Below, piece by piece: positions 1 to 12,038 of a stretch of DNA of 33,586 bases. Origin of the DNA: a bacterium. Its GTDB lineage: Bacteria; Lindowbacteria; 2-12-FULL-62-27. The DNA lies in assembly GCA_016202645.1 (NCBI GenBank), contig JACQOF010000051.1, positions 1 through 33,586 of the forward strand. Reading direction: 5' to 3'. The translations under genes were made by a program, and so were the position numbers. The notes under the pieces were generated by a model. It searched no databases and was not told the DNA's origin. It was given only the letters and a program-made list of their open reading frames with translations. Numbering within the stretch: the stretch's first letter is position 1; each line of letters begins with the position of its first letter.

Positions 1-103
1 CAGTCCGAGAGCCGGATGCGGCAAATCCGCACGTCCGGTTCGATGAGCGGGGTGAGGAAACGGGGCGGGTTAATCTCCGCTACCGCGCCTCACCTCGACT
101 CTA
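1..103 (+). mobile_element. Group II intron 3' end (domains V and VI), cut by the window edge
   Basis: Positions 9-41 fold as a group II intron domain V. GAGCC (9-13) pairs with GGTTC (37-41), GGA pairs with TCC, a two-base GC bulge follows on the 3' side, and TGCGG pairs with CCGCA around a small loop. The length of 33 nt and the two-base bulge are diagnostic of domain V. Positions 49-57 (GGGGTGAGG) can pair with 88-96 to form domain VI. The downstream sequence around GACTCTAC resembles the 3' end of many bacterial class C introns. The reverse transcriptase/maturase, if present, would lie to the left of the window on the same strand. The exact 3' splice boundary near 103 is an estimate. Confidence 0.62.
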
Positions 104-153
104 CCCGTGTACCCGTGTACCCGTGTAACCCGTGTAACGTGTGAACCGTGTAA
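104..153. repeat. Imperfect tandem octamer array (CCCGTGTA)
   Basis: CCCGTGTA repeats directly about three times from 104, then continues in degenerate 8-9 bp copies (ACCCGTGTA, ACGTGTGA, ACCGTGTA) up to the terminator. It lies between the intron end and the terminator of the repeat-protein gene and codes for nothing I recognise. Two other octamer arrays with different sequences occur in this window, at 11031-11168 and 32079-32110. Confidence 0.8.
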
Positions 154-182
154 AAAAGGGGAGCGGCGAGTTGCCGCTCCCC
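152..182 (-). terminator. Rho-independent terminator of the acidic repeat-protein gene
   Basis: A perfect 10-bp GC-rich stem (158-167 with 173-182) closes a 5-nt loop and is followed, on the minus strand, by six T residues (A152-157 on the plus strand). It lies about 30 bp beyond the stop codon of the leftward 1048-residue gene, which is the expected position. Confidence 0.88.
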
Positions 183-213
183 CTGTGTGCGTTCTTTTAT
201 GTCAGGCTGACAT

Positions 214-3200
214 TCAAGCCATCGTTGCGGGCTCAGACTCGACCGGGTACTCGGGCATGGAACCGGCGTCACCGAACGGGGCCTCATATCCGGCTCCGTC
301 ATAGGTGCAGGCGGCTGTGAAATCTCCCGCGCCATCCGCGGGAATCGTGCACTGGGCTGTGGCCGGGTCATACATGGTGTCCGGCGGACACGTAACCGCA
401 ACGGACCCGTCCGGCTGGACGGCCATACCGTCCGGCATGACCGCGTAGGTCTCGGCCGGCGGAATCTCCACCGTTCCGGAAACCGGATCGATGGTGCTGC
501 CCTCAGGACAACTCCATGTGCAGGTTCCGTCCGGATTGGCTGACACGTCCGGCGGCAGAACCGCGTCGGAGTACTCGTTCGGCACCGTGTAGGTGCCTGC
601 GTTCGCGTCGAAGGTTGTCTCCGGCGGACACTCGTACACGACGTTCCCGTCCGGCGTTGTCGAAACGTCCGGCGGCAGGACCGCGTCGGCTTCCGCCTGC
701 GGCACTGTGATCGCGCCAGCGTCGGCGTCGATCGTGGTTCCGGGCGGAAGATCGATCATCACCGAACCGTCCGGCTGCGGCTCGCATCCGTCCGGCATGA
801 CCATGGTTGCGCCGTCCTGGGGAACGGTGAGTTCCCCGGCGGGAGCGTCATAGGTCGTGCCCGGAGGCATGTCGCAGGTGCAACTGCCGTCCGGATTCAC
901 CGTGACTTCCGGCGGCATCACCATGTCGGCGCTGTCGTTCGGAATCACAAACGCGTCGCCCTCCGGCGTGTACTCCGTTCCCGGCGGCAATTCGCAGGTC
1001 GCGGAACCGTCCGGGTTGAAGGTCATGTCGGTGGTGGCGTAGGTGTCGGCGAAATTGTCGGGCGGCATGGTGCAGGTCCCGGCGGCGGGATCGTAGCTGA
1101 CCCCGTCGGCCGGCGTGCCCACTTCCACCGCGACGACATACTCGCCTTCCGCTCCGGCCGGCGCCGGCTCGAGGCTTCCCGAACCGGTGTTCTCCAGCAC
1201 CATGTCGGTGCCTTCCGGTGGAAGTTCCAGCGTTCCGGAATTGGCCTCGAAGGTGGTTCCCTCCGGGCAATCCATCGAGACGCTTCCATCCGGATTAACC
1301 GCGATTTCAGGCGGCATCACCACGTCGGCGTCGGCGTTCGGCACGGTGAATGTGCCTTCAGCCGGATCCGCCGACCATGCGGCATCGCCCGCGGTCGGAT
1401 AGTCGCACGTACAGGTCCCGGCGGCCGGATCAAACGAAAGGGCCGGATCGCCATCAGGCGGCGGCGCTTCCCCTCCGGGCGGAACATACTCGCAACCGGT
1501 CATTCCCGACCAGGTTTCCGAACCTGGCGGGATGTCGAATGTGCCTGCGTTGGGATCGATATTGGTGCATTCCACCGTGAGAGACCCGTCGGCATTGACG
1601 GTCTCCCCCGCCGGCATGACCGCATCCGCTCCGGCGTTCGGAACGATGCATTCTCCGGCGGCGGTGTCATAGGTGGTTCCTTCCGGCATTGTGGCGGTCA
1701 TCGTGCCGTCCGGATTGGCGACCACTGTGTCCGCGGGCGCGTCCATGTAGCTCGGCGCATCCGCCTCCGGACAGGTGATGGTGCCGGCGTCCGCGTCGAC
1801 CTTCGCATCCGGCGGGATCTCACAGGCCACGCTTCCGTCGGGATTGATCGACATGTCGGGCGGAATGTAGTCCGCCGTCGCGTCGGCCGGAATCGTCGCT
1901 GTCCCGGCATTGGGATCAAAGGTGGTGCCTTCCGGCGCCTCGCATGCAATCGCGCCGTCCGGCTGGAATTCCATGTCCGGCGAAGGCAGAAAAACTTCCG
2001 AAGCCCCGTCGGCCGGCATGGTCATCGTTCCCGCGTTGGGATCGATGGTGGTATCCGGCGGGCAGTCGCAGGTGACGCTGCCATCCGGGTTGACCTCCGC
2101 ATACTCCGGCGTCACCATGTCGGTGCCTTCGGGCGGAAGTTCCAACGTGCCCGAATTGGCGTCGAAGGTGGTCTCCGGCGGGCAGTCCATCGTACACGAT
2201 CCGTCCGGCGCAATGTCCATCTCGGGCGGAACGGTCGGGCAGTCGGCCGGGGGATAATCCAACGTTCCCGCTGCGGGATCGTAGGTCGTCCCCTCGGGAC
2301 ACGCCACCGCGACGTCGCCGTCCGGCTGGACAGTCGCGTCCACGGCGGGCGCGAAGGTATCGACTGCGTCCTGCGGGGGCATCGTGACTTCGCCCGCGGC
2401 AGGATCCAAACTGCCTTCCGGCGGCACCGCAACCGCGACGTCTCCGTCGGGCTGAACGGCGCAGTTGTCCGGGGCGACCATGTCGGCGCCCTCGGGCGGA
2501 AGTTCCAAGGTTGCGGATTCGGCGTCAAACGAAGTTTCCGGCGGGCACTCGCAGGTGACGCTCCCGTCGGGATTCACGCTCGCGTAGTCCGGCTCGGCGA
2601 CGTAGGCCCCGTCGTTCGGAACCGTTGCGGTCCCGGCGTCGGCGTCGTAGGTCGTGCCTTCCGGCATCGCGACCGTCGCGGAACCGTCCGCGTTCACCGT
2701 TGTGTCATTGGGCAGGAATTGATCGGCATCCGCCGCCGGCGCGGTGATCGTGCCGGCGTCGGCGTCGACGGTCGCGGTCGGCGGAACTTCCGTCGTCACG
2801 CTTCCGTCCGCGTTCACGGTCTGATCCTCGGGCAAAACCATGGCGGCGTCGCCCGGGGGAAATGTCACATCACCCGCGTCGGCGTCGTACGTACAGCCGT
2901 CCGGACAATTCGCCACGACTCCGCCGTCCGGTGTGGTCGAGAGATTCTCCGGCATGACCGTGTCGGCCGAATCGGCTGGAACCACCAGGGCCGCCGCGTC
3001 CGCGTCGTACGTGGTGCCTTCCGGACACGACATCGTCGCGGATCCATCCGCGTTGACGGTCGCGTCCATCGGGTAAGCTTCAGCAGGCGGTGGTTCGGTC
3101 GCCGCAACCGTCGCGTCACCATTCTCGGGAATGGTGACTGTGTCGGTCGTCCCGGCGTCCGCGCCGGAATCGTACTGCGACATGTCATAACTGCCGGCAT

Positions 3201-3360
3201 CCGCCGTCGTTGCGTCCGCCTCGGCGTCCATGCTCTCGGCGTCTGCGTCAGCGATCGGAACGCCCAACGCTCCGGGCGCTACAATCTCGTCCAGCTTCTG
3301 GACCTTGACGCCTTTCTTCTTGGCCTTTCCTCCATCTTTCCTTCCGTCGTCCTTTGCCAA
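214..3360 (-). CDS. Acidic, cysteine-containing 40-residue-repeat protein, probably exported
   Basis: Protein of 1048 residues that I do not recognise as a named family. Residues 1-25 are lysine-rich. From about residue 95 to 1010 it consists of about twenty copies of a unit near 40 residues. Each has a turn of the form N-P/A-D-G-S, a short strand often holding one or two Cys, P-P/E-x-T-T-Y/F-D, D/N-A-x-A-G-T, a second strand, and a Pro/Asp-rich linker. After the basic N-terminus I see only one Lys and no Arg, so the chain is strongly acidic. Roughly thirty Cys are scattered through the repeats. Two units, around residues 600-760, are irregular. The start is TTG, chosen because AGGAGGT (minus strand, 3367-3373) sits six bases upstream and no earlier Met exists. 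There is no classical signal peptide. The gene diverges from an adaptor/protease/TolC operon, suggesting it is that system's cargo. The repeat turns recall Ca-binding or beta-solenoid modules, but this is inference. Confidence 0.85.
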   Translation of the reverse strand: MAKDDGRKDGGKAKKKGVKVQKLDEIVAPGALGVPIADADAESMDAEADATTADAGSYDMSQYDSGADAGTTDTVTIPENGDATVAATEPPPAEAYPMDATVNADGSATMSCPEGTTYDADAAALVVPADSADTVMPENLSTTPDGGVVANCPDGCTYDADAGDVTFPPGDAAMVLPEDQTVNADGSVTTEVPPTATVDADAGTITAPAADADQFLPNDTTVNADGSATVAMPEGTTYDADAGTATVPNDGAYVAEPDYASVNPDGSVTCECPPETSFDAESATLELPPEGADMVAPDNCAVQPDGDVAVAVPPEGSLDPAAGEVTMPPQDAVDTFAPAVDATVQPDGDVAVACPEGTTYDPAAGTLDYPPADCPTVPPEMDIAPDGSCTMDCPPETTFDANSGTLELPPEGTDMVTPEYAEVNPDGSVTCDCPPDTTIDPNAGTMTMPADGASEVFLPSPDMEFQPDGAIACEAPEGTTFDPNAGTATIPADATADYIPPDMSINPDGSVACEIPPDAKVDADAGTITCPEADAPSYMDAPADTVVANPDGTMTATMPEGTTYDTAAGECIVPNAGADAVMPAGETVNADGSLTVECTNIDPNAGTFDIPPGSETWSGMTGCEYVPPGGEAPPPDGDPALSFDPAAGTCTCDYPTAGDAAWSADPAEGTFTVPNADADVVMPPEIAVNPDGSVSMDCPEGTTFEANSGTLELPPEGTDMVLENTGSGSLEPAPAGAEGEYVVAVEVGTPADGVSYDPAAGTCTMPPDNFADTYATTDMTFNPDGSATCELPPGTEYTPEGDAFVIPNDSADMVMPPEVTVNPDGSCTCDMPPGTTYDAPAGELTVPQDGATMVMPDGCEPQPDGSVMIDLPPGTTIDADAGAITVPQAEADAVLPPDVSTTPDGNVVYECPPETTFDANAGTYTVPNEYSDAVLPPDVSANPDGTCTWSCPEGSTIDPVSGTVEIPPAETYAVMPDGMAVQPDGSVAVTCPPDTMYDPATAQCTIPADGAGDFTAACTYDGAGYEAPFGDAGSMPEYPVESEPATMA

Positions 3361-3453
3361 ACTGCCACCTCCTCAACGGATTTAAGGACAATCTTTGTCT
3401 TTTTTCTTGTCCCCCCAATCCCCCTGTTAGCCTCTGCTTTTGTATCCTTGGAT

Positions 3454-3482
3454 CATCTAAAAGACAAAGGATTCGTTGTCAA
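3454..3482 (-). promoter_or_regulatory. Candidate sigma-70-type promoter for the repeat-protein gene
   Basis: On the minus strand a perfect TTGACA (3477-3482) is followed after 16-17 bp by TTAGAT/TAGATG (3454-3460), a weak -10. Transcription would start near 3447, giving a leader of about 87 nt that ends in a strong ribosome binding site. Confidence 0.38.
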
Positions 3483-3521
3483 AATAGGCACAAAGGGACT
3501 GTCTTCTACGTCACTTCGAAA

Positions 3522-3538
3522 ATGTGAAAAAATCACAT
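3522..3538. promoter_or_regulatory. Inverted repeat ATGTGA-N5-TCACAT, candidate Crp/Fnr-family operator
   Basis: Perfect 6-bp arms separated by five A residues closely resemble the CRP half-sites TGTGA/TCACA, though the spacer is one base shorter than the E. coli consensus. It lies between the divergent repeat-protein gene and the operon that encodes a Crp/Fnr-type regulator. Its centre is about 83 bp upstream of the predicted start for the repeat-protein transcript, a distance typical of class I activator sites. Confidence 0.45.
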
Positions 3539-3545
3539 ACACTTG

Positions 3546-3560
3546 TCCACAATATGTGGA
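3546..3560. promoter_or_regulatory. Inverted repeat TCCACA-ATA-TGTGGA
   Basis: Perfect 6-bp arms around a 3-bp centre, eight bases beyond the ATGTGA/TCACAT site. It may be a second operator in the same divergent control region. No T-tract follows it in a way that would make it a convincing terminator. Confidence 0.35.
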
Positions 3561-3640
3561 TGATTTTTTTGTGGCCCAGAGATATAAAAAAATACATGGT
3601 CTGAGGACACTGGGTCAGACCGTGTCAAGTTTTGCAAAAT

Positions 3641-3780
3641 TCTTCCTCCCCCCTTGAGGGGGAGGCAGGGAGGGGGGTTACAACTCCGAAATACAGTGCT
3701 TTTCCTTCGGAAACCCCCCATTCAACTTCCCCCTCAAGGGGGGAAGGGTTGGTTGTGCAATGGCTGTAAATCGAATTTGC
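3641..3780 (-). repeat. Dispersed GC-rich palindromic repeat, copy 1
   Basis: About 140 bp holding two internal palindromes of the type CTCCCCCTTGAGGGGGAG, separated by GGGGGGTT and a non-palindromic middle. Its reverse complement aligns along nearly its whole length with 6938-7076, so the two copies are inverted with respect to each other and bracket the protease/adaptor and regulator genes. It forms most of the non-coding sequence between the divergent promoters. Partial copies lie at 14441-14475 and 15767-15803. An inverted repeat GGTCTGA-N10-TCAGACC (3598-3621) lies just outside it. Confidence 0.85.
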
Positions 3781-3863
3781 CAAAATCCAGTCAATACCAC
3801 GGTCTGAGCCCAACCCACCCACCTCTCCATATTATATAGAGGCCCCCCGCCAAGCCTTTCCCC

Positions 3864-3892
3864 TTGACTTATCCACAATCCATTGGCATAAG
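3864..3892 (+). promoter_or_regulatory. Candidate promoter for the protease/adaptor operon
   Basis: TTGACT (3864-3869) is followed after exactly 17 bp by CATAAG (3887-3892). Transcription would begin near 3899, only a few bases before the ATG at 3905. This leaves no room for a Shine-Dalgarno sequence, and none is visible, so the first gene may be translated from a nearly leaderless message. Confidence 0.4.
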
Positions 3893-3904
3893 CCCTAAGT
3901 AGAT

Positions 3905-6085
3905 ATGCCTGAGGCAACCCCTAAGCGGCTTGGACCCAAACTCAGAGAGGATTTAATCCTCGTTGAAAAGGTTCGCCAAGGGGAGAGGTTGCTGGTCATC
4001 AAGGACCCGATCACGGTCAAGTACTACCAGTTTGGCGCCTTGGAGATCGCCCTCTTCCGGCTCCTCGACGGTTCCACCCCTCCGCCCAAAATCATCGAGC
4101 AAATCAACGCCCAGCACCCGGACGCCGAAATGACGATGGACGAACTCAAGGAATTTCTCGGCGAGATCGATAAGATGAAGCTTCTGGAAAAGGGCGCCGC
4201 GGATCGGAATGCGCTCCTTCTTGAGCGGCTGAAGGAGGAGCGCAAGGGCAAACTCATGAGCAAGAAGGGATCGGTCATGTTCAAGCGTTTCCCCTTGGTC
4301 GACCCGAACGATTTTTTCGACCGCATTCATCCGTACATCAAATGGATCTGGAGCGTACCCTTTGTGGCGTTCATGTGCCTCGTGATCCTGGCGGCCTGCG
4401 TGGCGATCGGGTACAACTGGCAGGAATTCCTGGACGGCATCGCGGCCATTTTCTCCTTCAGCGAGCAGACCGCGTCGAGTCTCCTCTGGCTGTGGCTGAC
4501 GATCATCTGCGTGATCGCTTTTCACGAATTGGGGCACGGCCTGACCTGCAAGCACTACGGCGGGGAGGTCCATGAGATGGGGTTTCTGGTGCTCTTTTTC
4601 CAGCCCTGTTTCTACGCGAACGTGACGGACGCCTACATGTTCGCGAACAAGAAGCACAAGCTCTATGTGACGTTCGCGGGGATCATCGTGGAATTTTTTA
4701 TCGGCAGTCTCTTTTGTTTCGTGTGGCTTCTCACCGACCCCACCTCCGGCCTCAACGCCATCTGCTACCAGGCCATGACGGTGTGCGGCATCTCCTCCGT
4801 GCTCTTTAATCTCAACCCCCTCGTCAAATACGACGGCTACTATGCCTTCTCCGAAATGGTCGATCTTCCGAACCTCAAACAAAATTCCGGGGACGCCCTG
4901 GAGAAGTTTCTGACGAGGATATACAAAAAGAGGGATGACATCGAAGAGGACGACTTCACGCCGCGGGAACGCCGCATTTACATCATCTACTCAATCTGCG
5001 CCACGCTCTTTATCGTGTCTATGCTGGCGGGCATCCTGTACCTCATCAAAGACCCGATCCTTGAGTTCTTCCCGCTCTATCCGGAAGCCGGCGCCGCGGT
5101 TTTCATTTTCATCTGCCTCAAACTCCTGAGCGGCCAGATCTCGGCCACGACGAAATTTTTCAAGGATTTTTATCTGTATGAGGAGGCGGCCTACGGCGGC
5201 GTCAAGACACGCCTGGCGGCTGGCGCGCTCCTCATCGCCGTGATCGCGGCTTGCTTCACCGCGCCCTACGACATCGTCATCGAGAAGGAAATCAAAGTCG
5301 AGTCGCGCGACCGGTGGACCGTGCGGGCGCCGGTGGACGGGTTTCTGGAGGAGGTCTACATCAGGGGCGGCGAGGAAGTGAAGATGGACCAGCCGCTGTT
5401 TTTGATGACGAACCCCGACAAGAGCCGCCGACTCGCGGACCTGGCGGCGGAAGACCGGAAATTCGACATGCAGAGGGACCAGGCCGTCGCGGACGGCGAG
5501 CTGGGAAGTCTTCAGGACATCCAGCTCCGGGAATCTCAGAGCTCCCGGGAACGCGAGGCGATCCGCCGGGAGATGCAGAAGCTCAAGACGGTTTCGCCGG
5601 CCACCGGACTTGTCCTCACGCCTGCGGTAGAGGAACTTGCCGGGAAATATTTCAATGCCGGAGACAAAATCATGGAGATCGCCTGCCTGGCCAACTTGTA
5701 TTCCGTGGTGGAGCTGGAGGAACGCGAAGCCGGGGAAGTGCGGGACCGGCGGCAGATGTCGAGACTGCGCGCGGAAGGGAAACCTGCGGAACGGGCCACC
5801 TCCGCGCGGGTCAAACTCGGGGCGTTGCCGGGCCGGCTTTTTAGCGGGCACATCGAGGCGATTGACGCGGTCGCGGATACCAGCGGCGTGACCCGGAAAT
5901 TTACCGCGAGGATCGCCATCCCCAACCCGGACCTCCGATACGGCGAAAACTGGCTCGCCTCCGGACTGGCCCTCCGGCCCGGCATGACGGGCATGGCCAA
6001 GATCGACGTCCGAAGATCGACGCCCGCGGCGGCCATCGCACGGTGGTTCGCGGGATTCTTCAGACTTGATTTGTTCATGTACTGA
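3905..6085 (+). CDS. PqqD/RRE-like domain - M50 site-2 metalloprotease - HlyD-type adaptor fusion
   Basis: Membrane protein of 726 residues with three parts. Residues about 8-100 resemble the PqqD fold that serves as a peptide-recognition element (RRE) in RiPP pathways. Residues about 140-460 form a polytopic M50 protease with HELGH at 207-211 and the third motif N304-P-L-V-K-Y-D310-G, so zinc ligands and the catalytic Glu are present. Residues about 480-715 form a lipoyl/barrel-sandwich adaptor (ESRDRWTVRAPVDGFLEE and following) like HlyD/MFP proteins, with a short coiled coil. Known RRE domains bind leader peptides, M50 enzymes cleave substrates in or near the membrane, and adaptors link inner membrane to TolC. 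Together these suggest that it recognises, cleaves and hands over an exported polypeptide. The divergent repeat protein is the obvious candidate substrate; this is inference. The regulator gene follows after 2 bp. Confidence 0.86.
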   Translation: MPEATPKRLGPKLREDLILVEKVRQGERLLVIKDPITVKYYQFGALEIALFRLLDGSTPPPKIIEQINAQHPDAEMTMDELKEFLGEIDKMKLLEKGAADRNALLLERLKEERKGKLMSKKGSVMFKRFPLVDPNDFFDRIHPYIKWIWSVPFVAFMCLVILAACVAIGYNWQEFLDGIAAIFSFSEQTASSLLWLWLTIICVIAFHELGHGLTCKHYGGEVHEMGFLVLFFQPCFYANVTDAYMFANKKHKLYVTFAGIIVEFFIGSLFCFVWLLTDPTSGLNAICYQAMTVCGISSVLFNLNPLVKYDGYYAFSEMVDLPNLKQNSGDALEKFLTRIYKKRDDIEEDDFTPRERRIYIIYSICATLFIVSMLAGILYLIKDPILEFFPLYPEAGAAVFIFICLKLLSGQISATTKFFKDFYLYEEAAYGGVKTRLAAGALLIAVIAACFTAPYDIVIEKEIKVESRDRWTVRAPVDGFLEEVYIRGGEEVKMDQPLFLMTNPDKSRRLADLAAEDRKFDMQRDQAVADGELGSLQDIQLRESQSSREREAIRREMQKLKTVSPATGLVLTPAVEELAGKYFNAGDKIMEIACLANLYSVVELEEREAGEVRDRRQMSRLRAEGKPAERATSARVKLGALPGRLFSGHIEAIDAVADTSGVTRKFTARIAIPNPDLRYGENWLASGLALRPGMTGMAKIDVRRSTPAAAIARWFAGFFRLDLFMY

Positions 6086-6087
6086 CC

Positions 6088-6861
6088 ATGCCCCTCCTTC
6101 ACCGCTTCGGACAGAAACGCGGCATGGCGGCCCCGCCGTCGGCGTTTCCCCTGCTCGCCAAACACACCCTCTTCGCCGGTCTGCCGGAAGAAATCCGCCG
6201 CGATCTGGTGGCCAAGGGCAGTCTCGTCCGGATTCCGAAATATTCCCTGATGTTTCACCAGCGGGACGATGTGACGGCGGTTTATTTGATTCTCGAAGGA
6301 CTCGTCAAACTTTACCGGGACCTCGGCGAGACCGACCGGACCTGGGGATTTCGGTACAAGGGGGACATGGTCGGCACCGACTCGCTCCACGCGTCCGGAG
6401 GTCATTTGTACAGCGCCCAGGCGCTTGCGTTTGTCAGCGCCTGCGCGTTTCCGCGCGACATCCTGACGGACCTGACCGCATCCTCGCCGGAATTCTGCGA
6501 GGCGCTCTTTCAGCACGCCGCAAACGAACTTGAAACATCTCTCCGCGAACAGGACGTCCTCACCAGCCGCAGCACCAACGGGCGGATCGCGGACAAAATC
6601 CTGATACTGGCCGAAAAATTCGGCCGGATCAGCGGCTCCGCGGCCCCAAGTGTCGGCGTCTCTGACGCCGGCCGGGCTGAATCCCAGGGCGTCGTGCTTC
6701 AACTTCGCATCACCCAGCGCGAACTAGCCTCCCTCGCCGGGACCAACCGCGAGTCGGTCTGCAAGGCCCTCGTGACGTTCAAACGCGAGGGATCGATCGA
6801 CATTCTTCAAAACAAGTTGATTCTGGTTAAGAATCAAACCAAACTCGCCTCCTGGCCTTGA
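6088..6861 (+). CDS. Crp/Fnr-family transcriptional regulator
   Basis: Protein of 257 residues. Residues about 25-150 form a cyclic-nucleotide-binding-like beta-barrel (PKYSLMFHQRDDVTAVYLI, LEGLVKLYRD). A dimerisation helix follows, and a C-terminal winged helix-turn-helix with ITQRELASLAGTNRESVCKA around 207-226. The N-terminus lacks the cysteine cluster of FNR, so an oxygen-sensing iron-sulfur centre is unlikely, and the ligand is unknown. A loop at about 185-203 between the dimer helix and HTH is longer than usual. It is co-transcribed with the protease (2-bp gap). The inverted repeats at 3522-3560 are plausible operators, making it a likely local regulator. An internal Met at 6124 is an alternative start. 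Confidence 0.9.
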   Translation: MPLLHRFGQKRGMAAPPSAFPLLAKHTLFAGLPEEIRRDLVAKGSLVRIPKYSLMFHQRDDVTAVYLILEGLVKLYRDLGETDRTWGFRYKGDMVGTDSLHASGGHLYSAQALAFVSACAFPRDILTDLTASSPEFCEALFQHAANELETSLREQDVLTSRSTNGRIADKILILAEKFGRISGSAAPSVGVSDAGRAESQGVVLQLRITQRELASLAGTNRESVCKALVTFKREGSIDILQNKLILVKNQTKLASWP

Positions 6862-6937
6862 GTCAGGGGGGAGATGAATTATGATACAAGATTGGACACC
6901 CATGAGATGCCTTTTAGGAGTTATGAACTGGACTGTT

Positions 6938-7076
6938 GTAAATTTGATTTACCGCATTTGCACAACTAACCCTTCCCCCCTCGAGGGGGAAGTTGGATGG
7001 GGGGGTTCCGAAGGAAAAGCACGATATTTTGGAGTTGCAACCCCCCTCCTAACCTCCCCCGCAAGGGGGGAGGAAG
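6938..7076 (+). repeat. Dispersed GC-rich palindromic repeat, copy 2, supplying a ribosome binding site
   Basis: Near-full-length inverted copy of the 3641-3780 element, with the same two palindromic blocks (CCCCCCTCGAGGGGGAAG and CCTCCCCCGCAAGGGGGGAGG). Its right end supplies GGAGG (7069-7073), five bases before the ATG of the TolC-like gene. The element is open in the same frame as that gene, but the translated part looks nothing like a signal peptide, so I treat it as untranslated. Confidence 0.85.
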
Positions 7077-7078
7077 GT

Positions 7079-8605
7079 ATGAGCCGTGTCCGAGCGGCTG
7101 CGGTCTTCGCCCTCCTGCTGGGTCTATCGGGTTTCGCCGGGGCTTATGCGCAGGAAATTCGAATCCTCTCGATCCAGGACGCGCTGAAACTGGCGCTGGA
7201 CCGTAATCCGACGTTCGCCAAGGCGAACCTGTCCCACGAGTCGGCGCGGCTGACGTACTTGAAGACCCTCCACGGGCTCGGGTGGGTCGAGACCTTCTCA
7301 AGCAAAATGGACTTCAAACGGGACGAGACCGGCAGTTATTCCAGATATTCGACCGCGACCGGCGAGGTCTATTCATTCACCCGCGCCAAGACTCTCAGTT
7401 CCAACACGGCCTGGGATTTCAAACGGACCTTTGCGTCCGGCGTGGACGCGGACTTCTACACCAAGCTGAACAGCTCCGGCGTCCGGAACAAATACAAGAA
7501 AATCGGCCAGCCGACTTCCCTCCTGGAACAAACCGCCGGCGGCGACGTCACCCGGTATCAGTACCTCACGGAAAAAATCAATCCGGAAGTCGGGCTGAAC
7601 CTGACCATTCCCTTTTACGGGCCGGACAAGGACAAGGGCCGATTGAGCCGGCAGACCGCCGACATGATCTGGGAACAGTCACGGCTCGATTTCGAAATGG
7701 CCCGGAAAACCCTGGTCTTTTCGGTCCGCCAGGGATATTACGATCTCCTGAAAGCCCGGGAGATGACGCGCCTCCGGAAGGATTCGCTGGCCGAAGGCGA
7801 AGTCCGGCTTGAACTGGCCCGGAAGCGTCTGGGCGTCGGGATGGTCACCGACCTTGACGTTTCCCAGGCCGAACTTGCGGTCCTCCGGAACCGGGCCGAC
7901 CTGGCCGACGCGACGTTTTCGGAACAACAGGCCTTCAGCGGTTTCAACAGCCTCATCGGCCTCCCTCTGGATGACTATTATGACCTGACCGAATCCTTTC
8001 CGGCCGACGACGGCGAGGAGTTGTCGATCAAGGCGATTCAGACCCGGGTCGTGTCGGCCAGCGACGAACTCAAACGCGCCAACAAGGACGTCGACCTGGC
8101 GTCGGTTTCGGTCGAGGAGGCCCGGGGCAAACTCAAGCCGAGTTTCGCTTTTACGTCCACCTTGGCCATGGAGGGCGAACGGCGGAGCGTCCCGAGGGTC
8201 CTGAGAGATCCGGAGGAAAAATATGCGTTTGGATTGGTGTATGACTTTCCGTTCGGCAAGAAAGTCACCGAGCAGGCGGACCTTGAGCTGGCCAAAGCGG
8301 ACCTGAGCACGAAAGTCCTCGTGCGGGATGAACTCAGCCAGGGGCTCCTGCTGGACGCGACCCAGAATTATCAGGAGCTGTTGAAAGTCCGCCGGAGGCT
8401 GGCGATCGCCCGCCAGTCGTCGGAGGTGGCAGCCAGACGCCTCGAGATATCTCAGGCCAAGTACGATGCCGGCCGCGCCGAGATCACCGACGTGATTTCG
8501 GCGAAAGAAGCCCTCGTGAGCGCGCGCGTCGAGGAACTAAACAACCTCTACTCTGTCGCCGTCGCGCTCGCCCAGCTCGAACTGCTGACGGGAGGTTCCC
8601 TGTGA
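7079..8605 (+). CDS. TolC-family outer-membrane efflux protein
   Basis: Protein of 508 residues with a cleavable signal peptide (MSRVRAAAVFALLLGL, then AYAQ before EIRIL). The rest is a typical outer-membrane factor with two structural repeats, IQDALKLALDRNP near the mature N-terminus and the C-terminal helix pair ISQAKYDAGRAEITDVISAK. TolC trimers form the channel across the outer membrane and periplasm. I chose 7079 over an in-frame ATG at 6881 because the signal peptide begins here and GGAGG lies just upstream. It sits between the protease/adaptor-regulator pair and two further adaptors, and its stop overlaps the next start (GTGA at 8602-8605), indicating translational coupling. Confidence 0.9.
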   Translation: MSRVRAAAVFALLLGLSGFAGAYAQEIRILSIQDALKLALDRNPTFAKANLSHESARLTYLKTLHGLGWVETFSSKMDFKRDETGSYSRYSTATGEVYSFTRAKTLSSNTAWDFKRTFASGVDADFYTKLNSSGVRNKYKKIGQPTSLLEQTAGGDVTRYQYLTEKINPEVGLNLTIPFYGPDKDKGRLSRQTADMIWEQSRLDFEMARKTLVFSVRQGYYDLLKAREMTRLRKDSLAEGEVRLELARKRLGVGMVTDLDVSQAELAVLRNRADLADATFSEQQAFSGFNSLIGLPLDDYYDLTESFPADDGEELSIKAIQTRVVSASDELKRANKDVDLASVSVEEARGKLKPSFAFTSTLAMEGERRSVPRVLRDPEEKYAFGLVYDFPFGKKVTEQADLELAKADLSTKVLVRDELSQGLLLDATQNYQELLKVRRRLAIARQSSEVAARRLEISQAKYDAGRAEITDVISAKEALVSARVEELNNLYSVAVALAQLELLTGGSL

Positions 8606-11013
8606 GCGAGCCGGAAGCGGCGCCGGTGGAGGGCCAGGAGGATCTGAAGGCGAAACTCGACCGGCTTACCCTCCTCTACGGCCTCAACCGGGACTTCAAC
8701 GCCACCCTCGACGTCGCGGAACTCATGCCGAAAGTTTTCGAAAAAGTTCTCACGGCGGCCGATGCCGAGGCGGGGTCGTTCTGGCTGTGGGACGAGGAGC
8801 GCAAGGTCATCACCTGCGAAAACGCGTTCGGGCCGGGAAGCGAGAGCGTCAAGGGTCTGGAATTGCCCAAGGGCACCGGGGTGGTGGGCTGGGTGATCAA
8901 CATGAAGAAGCCAACCATCGTCAAGGACGCCACGGCGGACAAGCGGTTCGCGGGGAAGAAGGACGAAAAAAGCGGGTTCGTCACGAAATCGATGATCTGC
9001 GTGCCCCTCGTGGCCTCGACCGGCGTTCTCGGCGCCATCCAAGTGTTGAATAAGAAAGGCGACACCGGACAGTTCAGCGACGAGGACCTGGAACTCTGCC
9101 GCGTCCTGGCCGACAACGCCGCCATGGCTCTTGTCAACGCGCGGTCGTTCGAGAACGAGAAAAAGGCGAAGGAACGCATCCAGGTCTTCAACGAATTCAA
9201 CAAGGCCCAGAGCACGACCCTCGAACTCGACAAATTGCTCGACATTATTTTGAAACGCGTCGTCGCCATCCTCGACGCCATGGCCGGAAGCGTGTGGCTC
9301 CGGGAGGGCCAGGAACTGGCCTGCAAGGTCGCCGCCGGGCCGACGGGCGGAAAATTGAAGGGCGTGAAAGTCGGGGTCGGGACGGGGATTGTCGGAAGCG
9401 TGGTGTCGAAGAAGACGCCGATGATCGTGGAGGACACGTCGAAGTCGGAACTTTTTTCGGGGAAAGTCGACGACGCGACGGGGTTCAAAACCAAGTCCCT
9501 CATCACCGTGCCGCTCATCCACCAGGACGAGGCCATCGGCGCGATCCAGATCATCAATAAAAAACATCAGGATGACCTCTTCACCAAGGAGGACATGGAA
9601 CTTTTGTCCAGCCTCGCGGGGCTTTCCACCAGCGCCATCAAAAACGCGACGCTGTACGAGGTCGAACGCAAAGCCAAGGACCTGTCGACCCTGCTCGAGA
9701 TTTCCAAGGACGTTTCCTCCAACCTCGACATCGACAGCGTCCTCGTCACGGTCGTGAACCTCACCAACCAGGTCGTCCCCTACGACCGGGCGGCGATGTT
9801 TGTGAAGAACGAAAACAAGTTCGACCTCAAGGCGGTCTCGGGCGTGACGAAGATCGACATGAACGATCCGGTCATGAAGGCTCTCGACAACGCCGTCGAT
9901 GGGCTCGACAAGGATCTCTACATCCCCGATGCCGAAGCCTATCTCGCCGAGTCGGGGGGCGCGGCGGCGGTCAAGGAGTATCTCAAGGCCGCCGGCGTGG
10001 CGGCGTTCTACGCGAGGGTCCTTGCGGATGACCAGGGCGCGCTGGCGATGATGACAATGGAGAGCAAGAACAAGAATTTTATTCCGCCCGCGCAGATGGA
10101 GATGATCACGCTCCTGGCCAACCAGATCACCGTTTCGCTCCGGAACGCGGAACTTTATAAATCCGTTCCGCTCTTCTCGTCCCTCGGCCAGAGCGCGGTC
10201 GGGAAACGCCCGCTTGTGGCGGCGGCGATCGGGTTGGCGGTCCTCGCGGGTCTCGGGGCTCTGCTCACCATTCCCAAAATCGAGCACCAGATCGCGGGGG
10301 ATATCGAAATCATCCCGATCGTCAAATATAAAATTTACGCCAAGGAAAGCGGGCTCCTGGAAAAGGTCCAGTTCCAGGAGGGCGATATGATCAAAGCCGG
10401 GGATCTCTTCGCGGAACTGTCCGTGCTGGACATGGAGCAGGAACGCTCGAAACTGACGACCAAGCGCGAACTGGCGCGGCAGGCGTATCTGCGCGCCATC
10501 GGCCTCTCGAACATGGCGGAGGCGAGGATGAAGGAATCCGAGATTGCGCAGGCTGAGCGCGAACTCGCCAATCTGGCCTCGAAGATGAATAACACCAAAG
10601 TCATTTCTCCGTACGAGGGCCAGGTCCTCACGAAGGATCTTTCCCAGAAAGTCGGAGAAAACGTGAGCCGGGGGTCGATCGTCGGAGAAGTCGTCGACCT
10701 CGGAGAGCTTCAGGTCAAATTCCTCGTGCCGCAGGAACAGATCCGGTACATCCAGGCCGGCCAGCCCGTCCACTTCAAAGTCTCGGCCTATCCGGCACGG
10801 GCCTTTGACGTCAAGATCGACCGGATCGGCCTCGACGCGGAACCCGTGGAAAGTCAGATTTTCTACAACGCCTACGCCACCATCTCGAATGCCGACCGGG
10901 CCCTGCGGGCCGGCATGTCCGGCCGTGGCCGGATCCACGCGGGCAAGTGGCGCCCCCTCGACCGGCTTCTCGAACAGCCGACGCACTGGTTTCGGATGAC
11001 GTGGGTATGGTAG
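8602..11013 (+). CDS. Triple-GAF sensor fused to HlyD-type membrane adaptor
   Basis: Protein of 803 residues. Three GAF domains occupy about 30-180, 205-355 and 370-525. The first two are clear, with the typical endings VPLVASTGVLGAIQVLNKK and VPLIHQDEAIGAIQIINKK; the third is more divergent. A single transmembrane helix follows at about 536-556 (LVAAAIGLAVLAGLGALLTI), then a HlyD-like periplasmic part at about 570-790 with barrel-sandwich halves around a coiled coil. GAF domains usually sense small molecules in the cytoplasm, so the protein could couple an intracellular signal to the assembly or opening of the export channel. It starts with GTG preceded by GGAGG (8591-8595). The ligand is unknown, and I see no output domain such as a cyclase or kinase. 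Confidence 0.88.
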   Translation: MSEPEAAPVEGQEDLKAKLDRLTLLYGLNRDFNATLDVAELMPKVFEKVLTAADAEAGSFWLWDEERKVITCENAFGPGSESVKGLELPKGTGVVGWVINMKKPTIVKDATADKRFAGKKDEKSGFVTKSMICVPLVASTGVLGAIQVLNKKGDTGQFSDEDLELCRVLADNAAMALVNARSFENEKKAKERIQVFNEFNKAQSTTLELDKLLDIILKRVVAILDAMAGSVWLREGQELACKVAAGPTGGKLKGVKVGVGTGIVGSVVSKKTPMIVEDTSKSELFSGKVDDATGFKTKSLITVPLIHQDEAIGAIQIINKKHQDDLFTKEDMELLSSLAGLSTSAIKNATLYEVERKAKDLSTLLEISKDVSSNLDIDSVLVTVVNLTNQVVPYDRAAMFVKNENKFDLKAVSGVTKIDMNDPVMKALDNAVDGLDKDLYIPDAEAYLAESGGAAAVKEYLKAAGVAAFYARVLADDQGALAMMTMESKNKNFIPPAQMEMITLLANQITVSLRNAELYKSVPLFSSLGQSAVGKRPLVAAAIGLAVLAGLGALLTIPKIEHQIAGDIEIIPIVKYKIYAKESGLLEKVQFQEGDMIKAGDLFAELSVLDMEQERSKLTTKRELARQAYLRAIGLSNMAEARMKESEIAQAERELANLASKMNNTKVISPYEGQVLTKDLSQKVGENVSRGSIVGEVVDLGELQVKFLVPQEQIRYIQAGQPVHFKVSAYPARAFDVKIDRIGLDAEPVESQIFYNAYATISNADRALRAGMSGRGRIHAGKWRPLDRLLEQPTHWFRMTWVW

Positions 11014-12038
11014 AGATGACGCCTATGCAAGGGAGAAAGGGAGAAAGGGAGAAAGGGAGAAAGTTAAACAGAGGAACCCGGGGAAATCTTTGTCCTTTCT
11101 CCCTCTCTCCCTCTATCCCTCTCTCCCTTCTTTTCTGTTTATCCTTTCTCCCTTTCTCCCTTTCTCCCTCTATCCCTGCCCACGCGGACGTCTATCCAAA
11201 CGGCCTCGTGGTGCCCTATCTCGATGTATCCGTCTCCCCCCGCGCGTCGGGGACGGTCACGGAGATTTTCGTGAAGGAGGGAGACTGGATACAGGTGGGC
11301 GATACGCTCGCGGTGATGGACGATGCCAAGGAACAGCTGGACATGGAACTGTCGGAACATGAAATCGACGAACTGCGCGTGTCCCTGGACAAATTGAAAA
11401 AAGGCCGCCAACCCAAGGAACTGGAAAAGATGCAAGTTGACCTGAAGAAGGCAAAACTTTCGGAAGAGAAGGCGAAGGCCGAATTGGACCGGGTGGAGCG
11501 GCTGTTTGAGCAGAAGGCGGTGTCGGAAAAAGAGGTGGCCGACGCGAAAAATGCCCACCAGACCGCCGCGCTCTCCGTCGAGTCTCTCCGGCTTGGACTG
11601 GAAATCGCCGCGTCCGAACCCCGGAAAGAGGACGTGATCCTGCAGGAAATGAAAATCGCGCAGAAAATGACGGGCCGGGATCAGAAAACCCTCGCGCTCG
11701 AAAAACTGACCCTCATCTCGCCCGCCGCCGGCGCGATCACCAAACTTTACTACGCCCCCGGCGAATACGCGGGCGCCGGGTCGCCCTTCTGCGACGTGAT
11801 TTACACCGACAGCCTCTACGTAGAACTCAACCTGCCGCTGTCAGAAATCCGCCGGATCGAGAGGGGCATGCGCGCGGAAGTCACCGTCCCGGCCATCACG
11901 CCGAAAACCTACGCCGGCAAGGTGGTCTTCATCGGCCCCACGGTCGACCCGGCCAGCCGGACCTTCAAGATCCGGATTCTGATCGATAATCCCAAACACG
12001 TTCTCAGACCGGGACTATTCGCCACGGTTAAACTGTAA
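11007..12038 (+). CDS. HlyD/MFP-family periplasmic adaptor with repeat-derived N-terminus
   Basis: Adaptor of up to 343 residues. The mature part (from DVYPNGLVVPYLDVSV) has a lipoyl-like barrel (ASGTVTEIFVKEGDWIQVGD), a long coiled-coil hairpin, the second barrel half (LTLISPAAGAITKLYYAPGE) and the beta-barrel ending in LRPGLFATVKL. It resembles RND-type membrane fusion proteins more than the other two adaptors do. The N-terminus is unusual: candidate starts at 11007, 11016 and 11025 all precede four perfect GGGAGAAA octamers, then come pyrimidine-rich octamers that encode a hydrophobic Ser/Pro/Leu/Phe stretch ending in PAHA, a plausible signal peptide. The start overlaps the previous stop by 7 bp. 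The true start is uncertain. Because the octamer length is not a multiple of three, copy-number change would shift the frame. Confidence 0.83.
   Translation: MVEMTPMQGRKGEREKGRKLNRGTRGNLCPFSLSPSIPLSLLFCLSFLPFSLSPSIPAHADVYPNGLVVPYLDVSVSPRASGTVTEIFVKEGDWIQVGDTLAVMDDAKEQLDMELSEHEIDELRVSLDKLKKGRQPKELEKMQVDLKKAKLSEEKAKAELDRVERLFEQKAVSEKEVADAKNAHQTAALSVESLRLGLEIAASEPRKEDVILQEMKIAQKMTGRDQKTLALEKLTLISPAAGAITKLYYAPGEYAGAGSPFCDVIYTDSLYVELNLPLSEIRRIERGMRAEVTVPAITPKTYAGKVVFIGPTVDPASRTFKIRILIDNPKHVLRPGLFATVKL
11031..11062. repeat. Perfect tandem octamer array, GGGAGAAA x 4
   Basis: Four identical 8-bp units directly after the candidate start codons of the HlyD-type adaptor gene. They encode a basic stretch (GRKGEREKGRK). 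The reverse complement of the same octamer recurs at 11096-11168, so the transcript could fold back on itself. Confidence 0.95.
11096..11168. repeat. Octamer arrays of TTTCTCCC and variants
   Basis: Positions 11096-11127 hold TTTCTCCC followed by three variants (TCTCTCCC, TCTATCCC, TCTCTCCC). Positions 11145-11168 hold three perfect TTTCTCCC units and one degenerate unit follows. They are complementary to the GGGAGAAA array. In the reading frame of the adaptor they encode the hydrophobic core of its putative signal peptide. Confidence 0.93.

Follow-up and report, generated by a model that had tools for sequence, protein, structure and literature searches.

A predicted leader-guided M50-HlyD-TolC export locus beside a giant acidic repeat protein in Lindowbacteria

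Background

The closest known signal to the one described here is LEPR-XLL (NCBIfam NF012209, LEPR-8K), which, like the motif LE[DEQ]RIAP treated below, is a short N-terminal LE-x-R-type motif of giant proteins. It is followed by LLSAD, whereas proteins with the motif LE[DEQ]RIAP have IAPG instead. The daptide intramembrane metalloprotease (NF041824) and the YydH/LiaK epipeptide protease (NF058609) align over aa 13-385 with the RRE-like and M50 core of the fusion protein of this locus. That fusion differs from them in carrying a HlyD adaptor and in being paired with a giant cargo rather than a small peptide, and it scores only 182.7 bits against the NCBIfam daptide_HExxH model, below the curated cut-off of 300. 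Type I secretion (ABC transporter-HlyD-TolC) has HlyD adaptors, TolC and acidic, repeat-rich giant cargo in common with the locus. In contrast to type I secretion the locus has neither an ABC ATPase (a distant gene is not excluded) nor RTX nonapeptides, its predicted signal is N-terminal, and one of its adaptors is joined to a protease domain. The RiPP recognition element (RRE, PqqD-type) resembles the N-terminal domain of the fusion in predicted fold and profile matches, and both go with a substrate that has a conserved leader. Here the locus departs from RiPP systems in that no modification enzyme was recognised in the operon and the RRE sequence match is weak. No relevant paper on the motif or the module was found in the open-access literature; most subscription journals and bioRxiv preprints were outside the coverage of that search.

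The locus and its genes

The window, meaning the whole stretch of 33,586 nucleotides that was analysed, is contig C23 of a 2.9-Mb draft genome in 146 contigs that is 82% complete. Three genomes of the phylum, all of one family, were compared: the window genome, G001 (Candidatus Lindowbacteria bacterium RIFCSPLOWO2_12_FULL_62_27), which belongs to a different genus, and G002. The features of the locus are as follows.

150..187, minus strand: intrinsic-terminator-like hairpin and U-run behind the repeat gene (sequence read by eye)
214..3360, minus strand: giant acidic repeat protein, the predicted cargo (ORF of 1048 aa, about 24 units of about 40 aa, TTG start; syntenic orthologue in G001, 58% identical)
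3262..3321, minus strand: predicted leader or recognition segment KKKGVKVQKLDEIVAPGALG, aa 14-33 of the repeat protein (conservation against the G001 orthologue; related to LE[DEQ]RIAP of other fusion loci)
3905..6085, plus strand: fusion of RRE-like domain, M50 zinc protease and HlyD adaptor, 726 aa (Pfam M50 and HlyD, NCBIfam, AlphaFold2)
3929..4195, plus strand: RRE-like N-terminal domain of the fusion, about aa 9-97 (predicted three strands and three helices; profile matches in PDB)
6088..6861, plus strand: Crp/Fnr-family regulator (Pfam cNMP_binding and HTH_Crp_2; same place in G001)
7079..8605, plus strand: TolC-family outer-membrane channel (Pfam OEP, 2.7e-36; likely true start at the signal peptide MSRVRAAAVFALLLGLSGFAGAYAQ, judged from the translation)
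8602..11013, plus strand: GAF-GAF-HlyD adaptor, 803 aa (Pfam GAF twice and HlyD; GAF part predicted cytoplasmic; a homologue adjoins most fusions)
10947..12038, plus strand: HlyD-type periplasmic adaptor (Pfam HlyD_D23, 1.6e-27; kept in G001; true start later than the ORF start)

The ORF list, Pfam and NCBIfam place all six genes where an earlier note on this DNA had put them, and confirm the arrangement that it described, a 1048-aa acidic repeat protein divergent from an operon of fusion, Crp/Fnr, TolC, GAF-HlyD and HlyD genes. Its identification of the channel holds with a corrected start, since the listed ORF begins too early and the likely start is at 7079. The two further adaptors that it named do have HlyD parts; the gene at 8602 additionally encodes GAF domains ahead of HlyD, and the ORF start listed for the last adaptor is again too early.

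The same divergent arrangement is found in G001, with the fusion 71% identical to that of the window and with the Crp/Fnr gene and the order of the TolC operon, including the last HlyD gene, kept. Neither the fusion nor the repeat protein was found in G002, a genome that is only 88% complete.

The contig begins 213 bases past the stop of the repeat protein, so that the region behind the repeat gene is truncated in the window. An Rfam group II intron match (window 7-104, plus strand) lies at the edge of the contig, some 110 bases past that gene, and is followed by tandem ACCCGTGT units. In G001 the region behind the repeat gene (L040:3375-12393), which the window contig does not reach, encodes an M6 (immune inhibitor A-like) peptidase, an alginate-export-like protein and a CHASE histidine kinase.

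The repeat protein and its predicted leader

The repeat gene has a strong Shine-Dalgarno sequence (GAGGAGGTGGCAG-TTG) ahead of its TTG start, and a perfect GC hairpin followed by a U-run lies behind it, near 181-150 of the minus strand, as seen by eye. Substitutions relative to G001 amount to 31, 28 and 53% at codon positions 1, 2 and 3, and on account of this pattern the gene is read as encoding a protein. The units, about 24 in number, follow each other at a near-constant spacing of about 40 aa along the protein. At the DNA level they are 60-70% alike within the cargo, and they diverge between species. AlphaFold2 gave a mean pLDDT of 45 with a hint of four short strands per repeat, and no fold search was based on this model. 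A chitin-binding CBM_14 match in the repeats was rejected, as no single stretch passes and the match looks compositional. The protein belongs to no NCBIfam family. Neither a signal peptide nor a C-terminal RTX signal was found in it; there is no occurrence of GGxGxD, and the conserved segment is N-terminal.

That segment, aa 14-33 (KKKGVKVQKLDEIVAPGALG), is identical at 18 of 20 positions in G001, while only 4 of the next 23 positions agree. Such a conserved island in a fast-changing N-terminus would give the pattern expected of a recognition signal. It occurs once, at the N-terminus, and not between the repeats. The window version, LDEIVAP, deviates from the consensus LE[DE]RIAP found at other loci.

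The net charge is +4 in the leader and -188 in the body, where a single Lys/Arg stands beside 189 Asp/Glu. The bodies of eight giant cargos that were examined contain 0-11 Lys/Arg per about 1000-2000 residues and have a pI of about 4, against a median of 11.5% Lys/Arg in the other long ORFs of fusion loci, where values below 1% are reached by only 7 of 420. Since giants with the motif from Verrucomicrobiota and LEPR-XLL giants differ in this respect, having 1-7% Lys/Arg, the Lys/Arg-poor body is a property of the cargo of the window's clade and not of the motif. Outside that clade, a giant with a LKVEELEERIAPAAVV start at locus L146 (G141, Sedimentisphaerales) has no Lys/Arg in the next 499 residues.

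The fusion protein

The fusion has Pfam matches to M50 and HlyD, and its zinc motifs HELGH and NPLVKYDG are intact. Residues H207, E208, H211, P305, D310 and G311 are invariant across 53 fusion homologues. The M50 domain thus meets the HExxH and NPxxxxDG criterion within a helical membrane region, from which proteolysis is only inferred. All 53 fusions match the daptide protease model. The AlphaFold2 model of the window protein has a pLDDT of 84.9; in it, three strands and three helices are predicted for the first 95 or so residues. When a profile of this N-terminal domain was compared with PDB, the first four ranks were PqqD (3g2b), TbiB1, TfuB1 and PaaA with weak E-values (0.009-0.6); all four are leader-binding proteins that bear an RRE. 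Pfam PqqD matches 11 of the 53 homologues, the window copy not among them. The N-terminus can accordingly be assigned to the RRE only as a remote, predicted relationship. Foldseek was uninformative for the RRE and M50 parts, the matches shown all being HlyD-type adaptors. At their C-termini the fusion and the GAF-HlyD adaptor carry an aromatic amphipathic tail (..RLDLFMY, ..RADLWL, ..VEFWSWW) that is seen across phyla.

No ABC ATPase signature was found in the ORFs of the window. An ABC ATPase lies within 6 kb of only 6 of 84 fusions, none of them in the clade of the window. The system either relies on a pump encoded at a distance or needs none.

The motif LE[DEQ]RIAP beside fusions in other phyla

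A scan with five fusions gave 406 matching stretches, of which 80 were kept as loci. These 80 come from Planctomycetota, Acidobacteriota, Gemmatimonadota, Verrucomicrobiota, Nitrospirota, Bdellovibrionota, Pseudomonadota and others. LE[DEQ]RIAP, in the form KLE[DE]RIAPG, heads giant acidic repeat proteins adjoining the fusion in Oligoflexia, Alteromonadales and Magnetococcales. Two giants of Oligoflexia (1373 and 2079 aa) have KLE[DE]RIAPGMxGGG and repeats resembling those of the window, and fusion-adjacent giants of 1066-1478 aa with KLEDRIAPGGIGGLVGDLG are found in Planctobacterium, an Alteromonadaceae MAG and Thalassomonas. The motif also heads a giant of 1751 aa without repeats of the window type (L174), whose repeats were not examined in detail.

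When all frames were searched for the motif, short ORFs came to light as well, most of them 46-100 aa long, in the neighbourhood of fusions of Gemmatimonadota, Nitrospirota, Acidobacteriota and Verrucomicrobiota; a motif ORF of Planctomycetota was found in a Pirellulales genome (locus L178). Cores of 4-60 aa follow the motif in the short peptides. Altogether the motif-bearing neighbours of these machines span at least seven bacterial phyla. No recognisable motif neighbour was found for a distant clade of Acidobacteriota or for most fusions of Planctomycetota. The earlier note had regarded the module as dedicated to one large cargo. This agrees with the giants of the nearest clade, but the motif also stands on small ORFs beside distant fusions, and the pairing is much broader than was proposed.

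With a position matrix, 30 strong motif ORFs were obtained in 20 of the 80 fusion loci and none in reversed controls. The matrix was built from its own hits, and fairer tests are the reversed control of the DNA pattern and the genome G086. The DNA pattern has 52 matches in 50 fusion genomes against 2 when read backwards. In G086, which was not used in defining the motif, a motif peptide ends 137 nt before an RRE-M50 gene. Eight matches were obtained in 98 mostly fusion-free genomes; apart from G086, the ones whose context was inspected fall within ordinary proteins or outside any convincing gene. The matches within ordinary proteins (by eye NRPS-like, PanB-like and others) were dismissed as chance.

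In Gemmatimonadota (L074, L077, L082, L084, L092 and L123) peptides of about 46-60 aa stand in tandem near the fusion, with the pattern LTxEQK..ATGK..ELSVEELEERIAP. As only 4-12 residues extend past the motif, they are candidates for tiny secreted peptides. A small ORF of repeated EELQEKEAPRRAPIG units at another fusion locus (L124:6386-6874, G008, Meg19_1012_Bin_119) is perhaps another type of leader or substrate.

LEPR-XLL proteins were found in 9 of 33 fusion genomes and in none of 14 control genomes. The cargo of the window is not one of them, as it has no match to NF012209, and this model matches none of the LE[DEQ]RIAP proteins scanned. In Thalassomonas sp. RHCl1 (G118:C20, L191:2411-9203 onward) two LEPR-XLL giants of 1134 and 2317 aa are immediately preceded by a second RRE-M50-HlyD gene together with two further genes of HlyD type, while a LEDRIAPG giant adjoins the first fusion of the same genome. 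The gene order suggests two pairs of motif and fusion in one cell, with LEPR-XLL also being read by a member of the fusion family. No fusion was seen near the other LEPR-XLL loci that were inspected.

Phylogeny of the fusions and cargo class

The maximum likelihood tree of 53 fusions places that of the window in a clade of 12 sequences with support of 100/98. Eleven of these 12 fusions have as a neighbour either a giant acidic repeat protein or a piece of one that is cut by the contig end, and the motif is present in these cargos wherever the start is readable. For L078 and L081 the start of the cargo is lost at a contig end, and for this reason the two were labelled by cargo type; the genome of L078 holds a matching motif start at L152. 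Mapped on the tree, the motif label needs 4 changes compared with 16.8 when shuffled, which shows that cargo class follows fusion phylogeny. Operons consistently without a repeat-protein neighbour, named in the earlier note as grounds for refuting its proposal, are not what is found in the nearest clade.

Discussion

The locus is probably a leader-guided, M50-coupled, TolC-type exporter dedicated to the giant acidic repeat protein and working without a local ATPase, with binding, cleavage and export all inferred from sequence comparison. The recognise, cleave and export module of the earlier note is thereby supported by comparative genomics as the best explanation, the location of the protein likewise being an inference. 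In the proposed mechanism the cytoplasmic RRE-like domain would capture the N-terminal leader of the cargo (KxxKLDEIVAPGALG here, LE[DEQ]RIAP elsewhere), and this capture would dock the chain at the M50 domain in the inner membrane, which would probably cut at the ..IAP-G motif or immediately behind it. The path across the envelope would consist of the HlyD domain of the fusion, the GAF-HlyD and HlyD adaptors and TolC, and the cargo may end up either free outside the cell or on its surface. A signal may act on expression or activity through the GAF and Crp parts. The membrane potential can assist acidic segments in crossing membranes. As the body is almost without Lys/Arg, has a net charge of about -190 and is not accompanied by an ATPase, the energy could come from the membrane potential pulling it outward, although this is speculation. 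Against the proposed exporter it can be said that M50 enzymes usually cut within membranes, yet the leader is not hydrophobic, and that movement of 1000-2000 residues without an ATPase lacks an explanation; a pump encoded elsewhere cannot be excluded.

Such a pump is the core of one alternative, a type I-like system whose export step depends on an ABC transporter or another energised pump encoded elsewhere, while the fusion only trims or escorts. HlyD adaptors and TolC normally need a pump, and the incomplete genome (82%) has other TolC genes. The alternative is nevertheless considered unlikely: the window has no ABC ATPase, 78 of 84 fusions have none within 6 kb, and the M50 domain itself carries the adaptor. 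Equally little weight is given to the fusion being a RiPP-type maturation protease and exporter, with the giant as a multi-core precursor cut into peptides of about 40 aa (or 20 aa). The near-constant spacing of the repeats would suit a precursor of this kind, as would the resemblance of the fusion to daptide and epipeptide proteases and the motif at the head of peptides of 46-100 aa with cores of 4-60 aa. A multi-core precursor is harder to reconcile with a leader motif that is present once and absent between repeats, with repeats that are only 60-70% alike in DNA and diverge between species, and with motif giants such as L174 that seem to lack repeats of this kind.

The genes could also be unrelated neighbours, the repeat protein being intracellular or structural and the operon serving efflux or signalling (regulated proteolysis by M50, sensing by GAF and Crp). 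The absence of a signal peptide and of a C-terminal RTX signal is compatible with this, and the Crp and GAF parts are regulatory. The divergent pairing is kept across genera, matching pairs occur in other phyla and the leader motif is common to the cargos, and chance neighbourhood is regarded as very improbable.

The proposed exporter lies between RiPP leader recognition and TolC-type secretion and would be a new class if export without an ATPase were shown. In a wider and clearly more tentative reading, it may belong to an undescribed, widespread class of secretion in which an LE[DEQ]RIAP-type leader is read by RRE-M50-HlyD proteins, and chains of a few to thousands of residues pass through TolC without an ATPase, the Lys/Arg-free polyanionic cargo possibly being pulled by the membrane potential. 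If right, the findings would link RiPP-style leader recognition with the secretion of giant proteins and would provide a first test case for a TolC pathway that exports a very long chain without a dedicated ATPase. One short motif would then be enough to tell which proteins are substrates of a large family of membrane proteins that is so far unstudied.
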